A stretch of DNA of 64,000 nt from positions 1 through 64,000 of the forward strand of contig JAUWGP010000006.1 in assembly GCA_030606335.1 (NCBI GenBank). The letters run 5' to 3'. This stretch comes from Caldifarciminota bacterium (GTDB lineage Bacteria; Hydrothermota; UBA3073). How positions within the stretch are numbered: the stretch's first letter is position 1; every line of letters begins with the position of its first letter. Under the pieces are notes generated by a model. That model was not told the origin of the DNA. It worked only from the letters and a program-made list of their open reading frames with translations, and did no database searches. This document shows, in pieces, positions 8,401-59,801 of the stretch. The translations under genes and the position numbers were made by a program.

Positions 8401-8472
8401 TTGTGGGGGCGGGATTCGAACCCGCGACCTTCAGGTTATGGGCCTGACGAGCTACCACTGCTCTACCCCACG
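8401..8472 (-). tRNA. Initiator tRNA-Met (anticodon CAT)
   Basis: 72 nt, CCA not encoded. The acceptor stem pairs positions 2-7 (GTGGGG) with 66-71, while position 1 is C opposite A72, the C1xA72 mismatch that marks bacterial initiator tRNA. The D stem is GAGC/GCTC (A11:U24), also an initiator feature. The anticodon arm is TCAGG-CCCATAA-CCTGA with anticodon CAT, and the T arm is GCGGG-TTCGAAT-CCCGC. Two oddities: position 33 is C rather than the near-universal U, and only two of the three usual consecutive G:C pairs are present at the base of the anticodon stem (A29:U41). A T-run follows the 3' end. Confidence 0.92.
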
Positions 8473-8481
8473 TTAAAGTGT

Positions 8482-8510
8482 ATTATACTATAAAAATTAT
8501 AATTTGTCAA
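8482..8510 (-). promoter_or_regulatory. Consensus promoter of the initiator tRNA
   Basis: On the minus strand TTGACA (8510-8505), 17 bp, TATAAT (8487-8482). The predicted start is near 8475, three bases before tRNA position 1. Confidence 0.88.
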
Positions 8511-8532: not shown

Positions 8533-8669
8533 GAATTTAGGAGAAAAGGAGAAAAAAGGAGATGGGGAAAGAAAGAAGGGGAGAGAATAAATAAATGAGT
8601 CTTACTTCTCCCTTTCATAACCTCTCCCTTTCTCCTGAAGAACATTAGGGGAAAAGGAGAAAAAAGGAG
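8533..8669 (+). repeat. Left direct repeat of the GxxExxY cassette
   Basis: Purine-rich repeat. Bases 8565-8669 match 9078-9182 over 105 positions with two mismatches, and similarity extends left to GAATTTAGGAGA at about 8533. It ends in AAAAAAGGAG, which is the ribosome binding site of the following gene. Internal AGAAGGGGAGAG and CTTCTCCCTTTC tracts could form a hairpin. Confidence 0.9.
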
Positions 8670-9053
8670 ATGGAGAAAAGGCAATTAATTTTAGAAAAGT
8701 TGACCGATCGGATTATTAAAGCCTGCATAAATGTTCACATACAGCTTGGGCCTGGCTTTCTGGAAAGTATCTATCATAAGGCTTTGGAAGTCGAGTTGAA
8801 TAAACAAGGTCTTGAATTTCAGACAGAGAAAGAATATAAAATTTCCTATGATGGTATAGAGGTTGGAACTCGTCGATTAGATCTGTTAGTCGAGGATGCT
8901 GTAATTGTAGAATTAAAGACAGTGGAAGAGATGCATAAAAAGTATTACGCACAGCTACGGTCCTACTTAAAGGCAACAAATAAAGAAGTAGGATTGTTGG
9001 TTAATTTTGCTGATTTTAAAGTAGACATAAGAAGAGTAGAATTAAAGAGATAA
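8670..9053 (+). CDS. GxxExxY protein (PDDEXK_3 nuclease-fold family)
   Basis: 127 residues. It contains the family-defining GPGFLESIYHKALEVEL (GxxExxY, about residues 28-44), then a restriction-nuclease-like core: IEVGTRRLDLLVEDAVIVELKTVE, with D in RLDLLV and E-x-K in VELKT, followed by HKKYYAQLRSYLKATNKEVGLLVNFADFKVDIRRV. This is the whole known domain. Members occur in environmental genomes, and the biological function is not settled; the fold suggests nuclease activity. The coding sequence sits exactly between two long direct repeats that supply its own and the next gene's ribosome binding site, as expected for an inserted cassette. Confidence 0.88.
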   Translation: MEKRQLILEKLTDRIIKACINVHIQLGPGFLESIYHKALEVELNKQGLEFQTEKEYKISYDGIEVGTRRLDLLVEDAVIVELKTVEEMHKKYYAQLRSYLKATNKEVGLLVNFADFKVDIRRVELKR

Positions 9054-9061
9054 GGAAAAAG

Positions 9062-9182
9062 GAATTTAGGAGAGATAGGGAAAGAAAGAAGTGGAGAGAA
9101 TAAATAAATGAGTCTTACTTCTCCCTTTCATAACCTCTCCCTTTCTCCTGAAGAACATTAGGAGAAAAGGAGAAAAAAGGAG
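9062..9182 (+). repeat. Right direct repeat of the GxxExxY cassette
   Basis: Second copy of the 8533-8669 repeat; 9078-9182 differs from 8565-8669 at two positions. It lacks one internal GAAAAGGAGAAAA-type block near the left end. Its terminal AAAAAAGGAG lies just upstream of the ATG at 9191 and serves the glycosyltransferase gene. Confidence 0.9.
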
Positions 9183-9190
9183 TTTGTAAA

Positions 9191-10102
9191 ATGGATAAAC
9201 TTATTTCAATAATTGTTCCTGCCTATAACGAAGAGGAAAACATAGAGCCCCTTGTTGAGGCAGTGTATAATATGCTTAAAAAAAATAAGTTCCATTACGA
9301 ACTCATAATCGTGGATGATGGCAGTGAAGATGAAACCTATTTAAGAGCAAAGGAAACCAGTAAAATACATGATTTTGTAAAAATAACCCGCAATAATAGA
9401 AAAATGGGTGTTACAAATGCTCTTCTTACTGGTTTTAAAATAGCAGAAGGAGATATTTTTGTATACTTCCCAGCAGACTTGCAGTACTCCCCTGAAGACA
9501 TCCCAAGAATGATAAATAAGATACAGGAGGGTTTCGATATAGTATGTGGATGGAAGGTTGGAAGGTATGGAAAGAAGTTTGTATCTGATATCTACAATAT
9601 GCTTTCAAGATTATTGTTTCACATTCCTGTTCATGATTTAAACTCTATTAAAGCGTTTAAAAGAGAGGTGGTCAGCGTAATTCCATGGCGCAAAGATTGG
9701 CATAGGTATATAGTGGTAATGGCATTCGAACAGGGTTTTAATGTTGGAGAGATAAAAGTTGACATTTATCCAAGAAAATATGGTATATCAAAATTTAGGG
9801 GACCTATGAGGGTAGTAATTGGTATTCTCGATCTGATTACTGTAAAATTTCAACTCTCTCTTATGCATAAACCAATGTTATATTTTGGCATAATGGGAGG
9901 TTCTCTTCTTTTTGTAGGGTTTATTATAGGCATAATAGCCCTTTACCTGAGATACGGTTTAGGCAGAGGTTACAGACTCCTCTTATTTTTAGTTATCTTT
10001 CTTGTATTAAGCGGCATCTCACTCTTTACTTTGGGGTTTCTGGCTGAGGCTATTGCTGGTATCAGAGATGAGATACATCAACTAAAAAGCAGCAAGAGGT
10101 AA
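9191..10102 (+). CDS. Polyprenol-phosphate sugar transferase (GT2, DPM1/ArnC-like)
   Basis: 303 residues. The N-terminal GT2 fold (about 1-215) begins ISIIVPAYNEEENIEPLVEAV, with VDDGSED and a metal/nucleotide motif in FPADLQYSPEDIPRM. The C terminus has two predicted membrane helices (about 233-255 and 263-290), as in membrane-anchored dolichyl- or undecaprenyl-phosphate glycosyltransferases. It would move a sugar from a nucleotide donor to a lipid carrier at the cytoplasmic face. It heads a cluster with GT4, an LPG-synthase-type membrane protein, a sulfatase-fold enzyme and YfhO. The sugar is not predictable. Confidence 0.87.
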   Translation: MDKLISIIVPAYNEEENIEPLVEAVYNMLKKNKFHYELIIVDDGSEDETYLRAKETSKIHDFVKITRNNRKMGVTNALLTGFKIAEGDIFVYFPADLQYSPEDIPRMINKIQEGFDIVCGWKVGRYGKKFVSDIYNMLSRLLFHIPVHDLNSIKAFKREVVSVIPWRKDWHRYIVVMAFEQGFNVGEIKVDIYPRKYGISKFRGPMRVVIGILDLITVKFQLSLMHKPMLYFGIMGGSLLFVGFIIGIIALYLRYGLGRGYRLLLFLVIFLVLSGISLFTLGFLAEAIAGIRDEIHQLKSSKR

Positions 10103-35109: not shown

Positions 35110-35412
35110 ATGAAGAAAAAGGTTAAAATAAAAATATTTGATAGAGAGTACGAGCTTGATTATAAGCTCGATTACAGGGAAGAGAGTGAAGTATACGTAA
35201 AAACTGTTGTAGACTATGTAAACAAAAAATATGATGAAATAAGCAGTTTTAGTAAATTACAATCTCTCCCTGATATAGCTCTCCTTGTATCCATGGATCT
35301 TGCAGATGAATTAATGGATGAAAGAAAGAAAAATGGAGAGCTTAGAAAGATTATAGAAGAAGGTATTAGTAATCTTCAAAAGATTAAAAAGGGTTCCCTG
35401 TCGTGCTCGTGA
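35110..35412 (+). CDS. zapA: Cell division protein ZapA
   Basis: 100 residues. ZapA bundles FtsZ filaments. The N-terminal beta strands and DREYELDYKLDYREESEVYVKTVVDYVNKKYDEI match the family (usual 'I.G.EY.L....D.EEYVR.VA..VD'), followed by ALLVSMDLADELMDERKK and a coiled-coil tail. Gene order pheT - coiled coil - zapA - 6S RNA - rny - ymdB also supports it. The last 27 bp form the 5' strand of the 6S RNA closing stem, so its C-terminal residues (KKGSLSCS) are constrained by RNA pairing. Confidence 0.88.
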   Translation: MKKKVKIKIFDREYELDYKLDYREESEVYVKTVVDYVNKKYDEISSFSKLQSLPDIALLVSMDLADELMDERKKNGELRKIIEEGISNLQKIKKGSLSCS

Positions 35413-35547
35413 TGGCATGTAAATCCTGAGCTAACACCAAAACATTGGGGGTTCTTTTTTGCTCGCTCTGCGGGTGAGAGAATACCCACCTGAGTATAGA
35501 GTTCAAAGGATGAAGTGTCACACGGCAACTGATGGAGAACCCTTTTT
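35386..35547 (+). ncRNA. ssrS: 6S RNA
   Basis: About 162 nt, between zapA and rny where 6S RNA often lies. AAAAAGGGTTC (35386-35396) pairs perfectly with GAACCCTTTTT (35537-35547) as closing stem; inside it GTCGTG (35400-35405) pairs with CACGGC near 35521-35526. The region AATCCTGAGCTAAC (about 35422-35435) matches the E. coli pRNA template region (CCTGAGC conserved). GCTCTGCGGGTGAG (35465-35478) resembles the E. coli upper-stem GCTCCGCGG..GGTGAG. 6S mimics an open promoter and sequesters sigma70 RNA polymerase. Its 5' end overlaps the end of zapA, so it may be cut from the operon transcript. No clear own promoter is seen. Confidence 0.85.
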
Positions 35548-59324: not shown

Positions 59325-59640
59325 TCGTTGTGTTAAATATCAACCACAGAGTGCACAGAGATTACGGATTTTTTTCTTCTCTGTGTTCTCCTAAGCACTA
59401 TGTTTTTCTAATTCATATAATAGAACAAAAGATAATAATCCCTTTAATCTAATAGTATCGGTGCTTTTTAAAAGAAAAATAAATTTATTCGAAGAACCCT
59501 GTGGAAAAGTTCTTAAATCTTTTACTCCCTATTTAGGAACCGTAGAGCACACAGAGGAACCAAAGAGTCCTTATTTCTTTTTCCCTCAGCGACCTCTGTG
59601 GTTACAGTTCTGTGGTTTATTCATAAATTTAACATAATCT
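59325..59640. repeat. CACAGAG-type repeats
   Basis: Fragments ACCACAGAGTGCACAGAGAT (59332-59351), TCTCTGTGTTCTCC (59377-59390), GAGCACACAGAGGAACC (about 59545-59561) and CCTCTGTGGTTACAGTTCTG (about 59593-59612) form partly complementary arms. No gene is seen in the 59305-59695 gap. Related fragments flank the hairpins near 43790-43980. Confidence 0.65.
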
Positions 59641-59695: not shown

Positions 59696-59801
59696 ATGCG
59701 ATTGCTTCGTCGTCCGTCAATCGACGGACTCCTCGCAATGACAAGAAAGAGAATGTCATTGCGAGTCCTGAACCGTATGGTTCGGGACGCAGCAATCTCA
59801 T
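59696..59801. repeat. CATTGCGAG repeats in opposite orientation
   Basis: ATGCGATTGCTTCGTCGTCC then GTCAATCGACGGACTCCTCG and CAATGAC (59696-59742), followed by GTCATTGCGAGTCCTGAACC..GGTTCGGGACGCAGCAATCTCAT (59755-59801). Same family as 26252, 44853 and 60753. Confidence 0.85.

Follow-up and report, generated by a model that had tools for sequence, protein, structure and literature searches.

A roughly 450-base GxxExxY nuclease unit with inverted, word-built ends: apparently a mobile element of an undescribed kind

The nearest known kinds of genetic element to the one reported here are the rRNA intervening sequences (IVS) and the RAYT/REPIN systems, and our unit lacks a defining feature of each. 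The IVS in the 23S rRNA of Coxiella burnetii is 428 nt long, is bounded by terminal inverted repeats, encodes S23 in its single ORF and has three heptamers in tandem ahead of the start codon; its RNA is excised by RNase III (PMC4990558). The locus studied here is alike in size, in its one small ORF, in its terminal inverted repeats and in the tandem words before the ORF; however, that ORF encodes a predicted PD-(D/E)XK nuclease and not S23p, and the unit is intergenic, lying between tRNA-Met and glycosyltransferase genes, whereas the IVS occupies helix 45 of 23S rRNA. RAYT/REPIN systems (PMC3116915, PMC2817692) share with it a nuclease-type gene flanked by palindromes, geneless palindromes scattered with the same ends, and a separate repeat type for each gene, whereas our units have no HUH/Y1 transposase, their only gene being that of the PD-(D/E)XK protein, their ends are iterons of tandem words, and the gene is itself present in multiple copies and across phyla. 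MITEs and DDE insertion sequences are likewise comparable in their terminal inverted repeats, internal-deletion derivatives and intergenic position, but GxxExxY units have neither a transposase inside nor a detected target-site duplication. To our knowledge, members of the GxxExxY family are annotated in numerous genomes and have no described function, and we found no description of their ends or mobility in the open-access literature searched, where two papers use the name GxxExxY and neither concerns mobility; the roughly 450-base GxxExxY mobile element is thus apparently of an undescribed kind.

The window, i.e., the whole stretch of 64,000 nucleotides analyzed, belongs to a 2.43-Mb draft genome (G000). 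The features of the focal locus are listed below.

8401 to 8472, minus strand: tRNA-Met(CAT) gene (ARAGORN, Rfam), left neighbor and synteny anchor in G000 to G004.
8482 to 8510, minus strand: strong sigma-70-type promoter of the tRNA gene, TTGACA-17-TATAAT, read from the sequence and outside the element.
8536 to 8644, plus strand: left geneless hairpin unit, with a purine arm, a short loop region and a pyrimidine arm ending CTGAAGAACA.
8645 to 8669, plus strand: purine word array TTAGGGGAAAAGGAGAAAAAAGGAG, adjoining the gene on its left; it forms the left arm of the gene-bearing element and provides the Shine-Dalgarno sequence of the gene.
8670 to 9053, plus strand: GxxExxY gene, 127 aa, with a predicted PD-(D/E)XK nuclease fold.
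9065 to 9157, plus strand: right hairpin unit, which closes the gene-bearing element on its right side; a loop region separates its purine arm from its pyrimidine arm.
9158 to 9182, plus strand: purine word array, the third, in which the final AAGGAG stands 8 nt upstream of the glycosyltransferase ATG.
9191 to 10102, plus strand: glycosyltransferase gene, right neighbor and synteny anchor.

The original prediction placed the GxxExxY gene between near-identical 105-bp copies, and this holds: positions 8565-8669 and 9078-9182 are direct copies with exactly two mismatches (8579, 8650), the BLAST match between them extending over 111 bp (97%, E=1.8e-48) and a longer, weaker one over 138 bp at 89%. 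Every 105-bp copy is in turn an imperfect inverted repeat, with an arm of about 88% purine followed by one of about 22% purine, the former consisting of GGAGAAA-like words and the latter being pyrimidine-rich. From left to right, the locus consists of a hairpin, a purine array, the GxxExxY gene, another hairpin, another purine array and the glycosyltransferase gene. In all there are three occurrences of the purine word array, one preceding the left loop, one the GxxExxY gene and one the glycosyltransferase. The hairpin nature of the copies and the threefold array are two points that had been overlooked earlier. Folding of the corresponding RNA (161-nt left and 146-nt right regions) was barely more stable than that of shuffled sequences (z of -0.8 and -1.8), therefore no strong RNA structure is claimed for the single hairpin. 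The focal repeat has a low-complexity character. Genome-wide matches considered as further repeat copies were rejected, as they corresponded mainly to the promoter box beside the tRNA gene.

The 105-bp copies had also been credited with supplying ribosome binding sites. For the glycosyltransferase this was confirmed, since the right copy ends in AAGGAG 8 nt upstream of the ATG (9191), a good Shine-Dalgarno sequence, although the arrangement is confined to the window's genome and its sister species (G001, 96% identity, also a draft assembly): the purine word before the glycosyltransferase start is absent in three other relatives (G002, G003, G004). For the GxxExxY gene itself, the nearest AAGGAG in the left copy abuts the ATG with no spacer, and a usable GGAG stands one word upstream, about 10 nt from the ATG; on this side the prediction holds only approximately.

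The orthologous site in relatives provides an indication of the age of the insertion and of the origin of the direct repeats. The GxxExxY gene is found there in G000, G001 and G003, the last of another genus than G000, and between the G000 and G003 proteins dN is 0.061 and dS 1.20 (dN/dS about 0.05); the focal insertion therefore appears to be old, vertically inherited and under purifying selection, and not fresh. In G003 the gene is accompanied by one full hairpin, in G004 its interior has been lost and a scrap of its 5' end remains between two hairpins, and in G002 the gene is missing and other repeat-ended units, with CCACAGAG... and GGACGCAG... ends, occupy the site. The G000 left unit is 98% identical to the G000 right unit, 99% to the right unit of G001 and 83% to the left unit of G001, and the two units of G001 are only 82% alike. 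These identities suggest that the right unit replaced the left one, so that, judging from the alignments, the near-identity of the 105-bp copies most simply reflects recent local overwriting within the lineage of the window.

The product of the gene is a clear member of the GxxExxY family, with scores of 138.1 bits against TIGR04256 (cut-off 35) and 136.1 bits against PF13366 PDDEXK_3 (cut-off 22). It is full-length, with the motif GPGFLESIY containing G29, E32 and Y35, and residues D71, E81 and K83 are invariant across the alignment of GxxExxY proteins. No solved structure was matched by sequence in the PDB; the AlphaFold model (pLDDT 94.5) found Cas4-type folds as its best PDB matches, 4ic1 giving E=1.5e-4 with a query TM of about 0.6. 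The modeled protein thus has a predicted PD-(D/E)XK fold of Cas4/RecB type with conserved catalytic residues. In its predicted fold and catalytic residues it resembles nucleases such as SSO0001 (4ic1) and Pcal_0546 (4r5q), differing in being a 127-aa minimal core with a query TM of 0.4-0.6 to these targets.

GxxExxY loci are numerous in the genus, with 13 in G000 and 19 in G001, counting fragments and one copy with an in-frame stop; ten further genomes of other taxa, reached through loci of a GTDB scan, hold 1-6 copies each. Most of the inspected genus loci are bracketed by a word family of their own in inverted orientation, with a period of about 8-11 bp, the families including GGACGCAGATGAACGCAGAT, CCACAGAGGTCACAGAG, GACAGGATGTACAGGAT, GCCACGAAGGCACAAAG, CAACGGATTAAACGGATT and AACAGGGACTTGGAAGAGACT. 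The defining repeats are inverted and built of iterons, and not the 105-bp direct repeats. In several loci the start codon lies within the end repeat, which is then translated as the protein N-terminus. Some GxxExxY genes are found within long arrays of geneless units, as at L076 (G000:C57), with CCCACGAAGGACACGAAG and AAGTCTCTTACGAGTCTC; at L280 (G000:C16:99156), a GGAGAAACGGAGAAAGGGAGA word array is apparently inside an ORF, coding for ERGRNGEREN-like residues.

Among relatives, a given site may hold the element, lack it, retain an internally deleted copy or carry an element of another type. G001:C77 is a 513-bp copy whose matching site in G000 is empty, with the flanks rejoined and at most one shared base, and at the site of G001:C90a only a remnant is found in G000. 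Conversely, a decayed copy in G000 (C19) is missing in G001, with short overlapping homology, a difference that could be a deletion. At two places (G000:C43 and C48), G000 and G001 hold different element types. Nostoc displayed a similar picture in nine genomes: in six the element sits between one and the same pair of genes and is of two protein-plus-end types; two are without it, about 35 bp of flank being missing too; and one has a different small palindrome at the site. The imprecise empty sites in Nostoc, together with the overlapping homology at one G000/G001 site, indicate that deletions may explain part of this variation. One Nostoc copy has the same insert of about 26 bp mirrored in both arms, showing that sequence was copied from one arm to the other; arms of the same element do become identical.

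The same ends also occur on geneless copies. The pattern GGACGCAGATN{1,4}CGCAGAT gave 14 matches in G000 and its reversed form 0; some matches bracket GxxExxY genes and others, one of them inside the window, stand alone. The following two geneless relatives lie in the window.

2383 to 2646, no strand assigned: ACGCAGAT-type unit, TTGGACGCAGATTTACGCAGATTT, with one left arm and two right inverted copies (2561-2587 and 2621-2646).
59342 to 59603, no strand assigned: unit with CACAGAG words, AACCACAGAGTGCACAGAG ... CTCAGCGACCTCTGTGGTT.

The ends of the former are those of GxxExxY genes on C42, C43 and C11 of G000, and in the latter no GxxExxY remnant was recognized by eye in six frames. Furthermore, a small separate palindrome, CACCCYGTTAAATAAT...TATTTAACRGGGTAAA, is nested in ACGCAGAT ends at the same position in L134 (G001:C74), L104 (G001:C134) and L080 (G000:C42). 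Around 59700-59800 the window holds a palindromic repeat of a different family, of the TGCGATTGCTTCGTCG...CTCGCAATGAC type, which is known from many bacterial genomes, and positions 35392-35542 correspond to 6S RNA (Rfam, 62.6 bits). The words of the focal locus itself are almost nowhere else: the 105-bp sequence, which the original prediction had proposed to trace through the genome and at orthologous sites, has no further occurrence in G000 by BLAST, whereas orthologous sites do vary in relatives, a mixed outcome for the refuting condition set with that prediction, and the focal purine word array gave four matches in two genomes, two of them being the focal site. Thus, the focal element itself is probably not mobile at present.

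Genes for S23 four-helix proteins, at 9-16 per genome in the genus, share the layout with other words. Several of them (L147, L150, L146, L154, L145 and L166) are outside rRNA and lie within iteron-ended units that resemble those of GxxExxY (e.g., CAGACTACAGACCGCAGACT, AGTAGCGAGTAGC).

Beyond the genus, the gene and its ends constitute a unit in at least 16 phyla, and the end words co-vary with the nuclease. The GTDB scan, queried with a four-sequence GxxExxY subfamily, retrieved 80 loci and favored the GPGLLES subfamily; the intact loci came from organisms in 16 phyla, one archaeon among them. The inverted-repeat score between the two flanks had a median of 17.25 in 74 GxxExxY loci and of 9.0 in 617 neighboring ORFs (p=3e-28), and 73% of the GxxExxY loci exceeded the control 95th percentile, a fraction that refers mainly to the favored subfamily; in the window's own phylum, 79% of the loci exceeded the control. 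Flanks swapped between GxxExxY loci also outscored neighboring genes, as expected if words are shared across phyla. S23 genes gave a weaker result in the flank test (22 loci, p=2e-4). Units are mostly 425-500 bp long; each end arm comprises about three 8-10-bp words in tandem, in most cases CRCRRAG repeated three times. The words follow the protein (Mantel r=0.267, p=0.0005), a relationship that also holds when the GTDB set or the window's own phylum is taken by itself; on the protein tree, 25 changes of word are required, compared with 35.5 after shuffling of the labels (p=0.003), and each word class spans several phyla. Ordinary target duplications were not seen: in 41 elements the best direct match averaged 3.95, against 3.63 for swapped flanks. 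No transposase was found inside the GxxExxY units. The proposal of a single-gene, repeat-bounded unit without a transposase is borne out in substance, if not in mechanism, and such units come and go. Plasmids and phages were rejected as common carriers, a single query (E<=1e-5) having matched the family in 8 of 72,556 plasmid records and 0 of 50,697 phage records.

Taken together, we consider it likely that the focal locus is an old, inherited copy of a compact mobile element consisting of a GxxExxY nuclease and inverted, word-built ends, which would operate as follows. The nuclease would bind its own end words and cut at or near them, probably acting on DNA that replication or repair leaves single-stranded or in hairpin form, as suggested by the Cas4/RecB-type nucleases among the nearest solved folds. 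Repair or a template switch would then copy the unit to a new place; it may also copy it into a resident element, resulting in site exchange, or from arm to arm, resulting in homogenization. In the focal locus, the same process would have replaced the left hairpin with a copy of the right one, leaving the near-identical direct repeats. More broadly, and as a tentative though serious proposal, GxxExxY could represent a new transposition system, in which a minimal Cas4-like nuclease recognizes its own iteron-built inverted ends, mobilizes a unit of about 450 bp without target duplication, spawns geneless satellites, overwrites rivals where they share a site and has spread in both bacteria and archaea, with S23 elements and rRNA intervening sequences as a sister branch.

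The chief rival is that host or third-party machinery (fork template switching, repeat recombination or an enzyme acting in trans) moves or maintains the units, GxxExxY and S23 being nucleic-acid-binding cargo that stabilizes or processes the hairpin. It is the S23 parallel that keeps this explanation alive: S23 is a four-helix protein and not a nuclease, and its genes are found in the same architecture with different words, so that mobility may come from shared host machinery; the Coxiella rRNA IVS is alike, its RNA being excised by RNase III (PMC4990558), and the lack of observed target duplication is equally in keeping with it. Nevertheless, the protein family has end words specific to it, and across phyla these mirror the phylogeny of the family, which suggests that the protein reads them, and the catalytic residues are invariant; we thus regard passive carriage as possible, but rather unlikely. 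That the units are non-autonomous derivatives of ordinary transposons, with ends belonging to a DDE or HUH transposase encoded at another locus of the genome, would account for the geneless copies with the same ends; it is improbable given that target duplication is not consistent and that the words follow GxxExxY, crossing phyla with it.

Two further explanations concern the focal locus more closely. A resident functional gene (a nuclease, defense or toxin-antitoxin module) whose flanks gained purine repeats by slippage would fit the purifying selection at the focal site (dN/dS about 0.05), the low complexity of the repeat and weak PADLOC matches to Cas4, but it fails the flank test, where the same architecture with other words stands far above neighboring genes in 16 phyla, and words that co-vary with the protein and numerous, often decayed copies make it very improbable. 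Even less credible is the original prediction of a 105-bp target duplication or of spread by recombination between direct repeats carrying ribosome binding sites, despite the 105-bp copies that flank the gene and the good Shine-Dalgarno sequence in the right one: the left and right units of G001 share 82% identity, G003 has one full hairpin only, other elements display no target duplications, and only G000 and G001 have the ribosome binding site arrangement.

If GxxExxY proteins are shown to be the cores of iteron-ended elements, the large family to which they belong, with no described function, would gain a role, and an explanation would be at hand for the CACAGAGACACAGAG- and ACGCAGATTAACGCAGAT-type repeats of environmental genomes. 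How rRNA intervening sequences move would become testable, since the same architecture is found here with a nuclease of assayable activity. Furthermore, the co-variation between nuclease and end words provides a natural collection of very small nucleases that may be sequence-specific.
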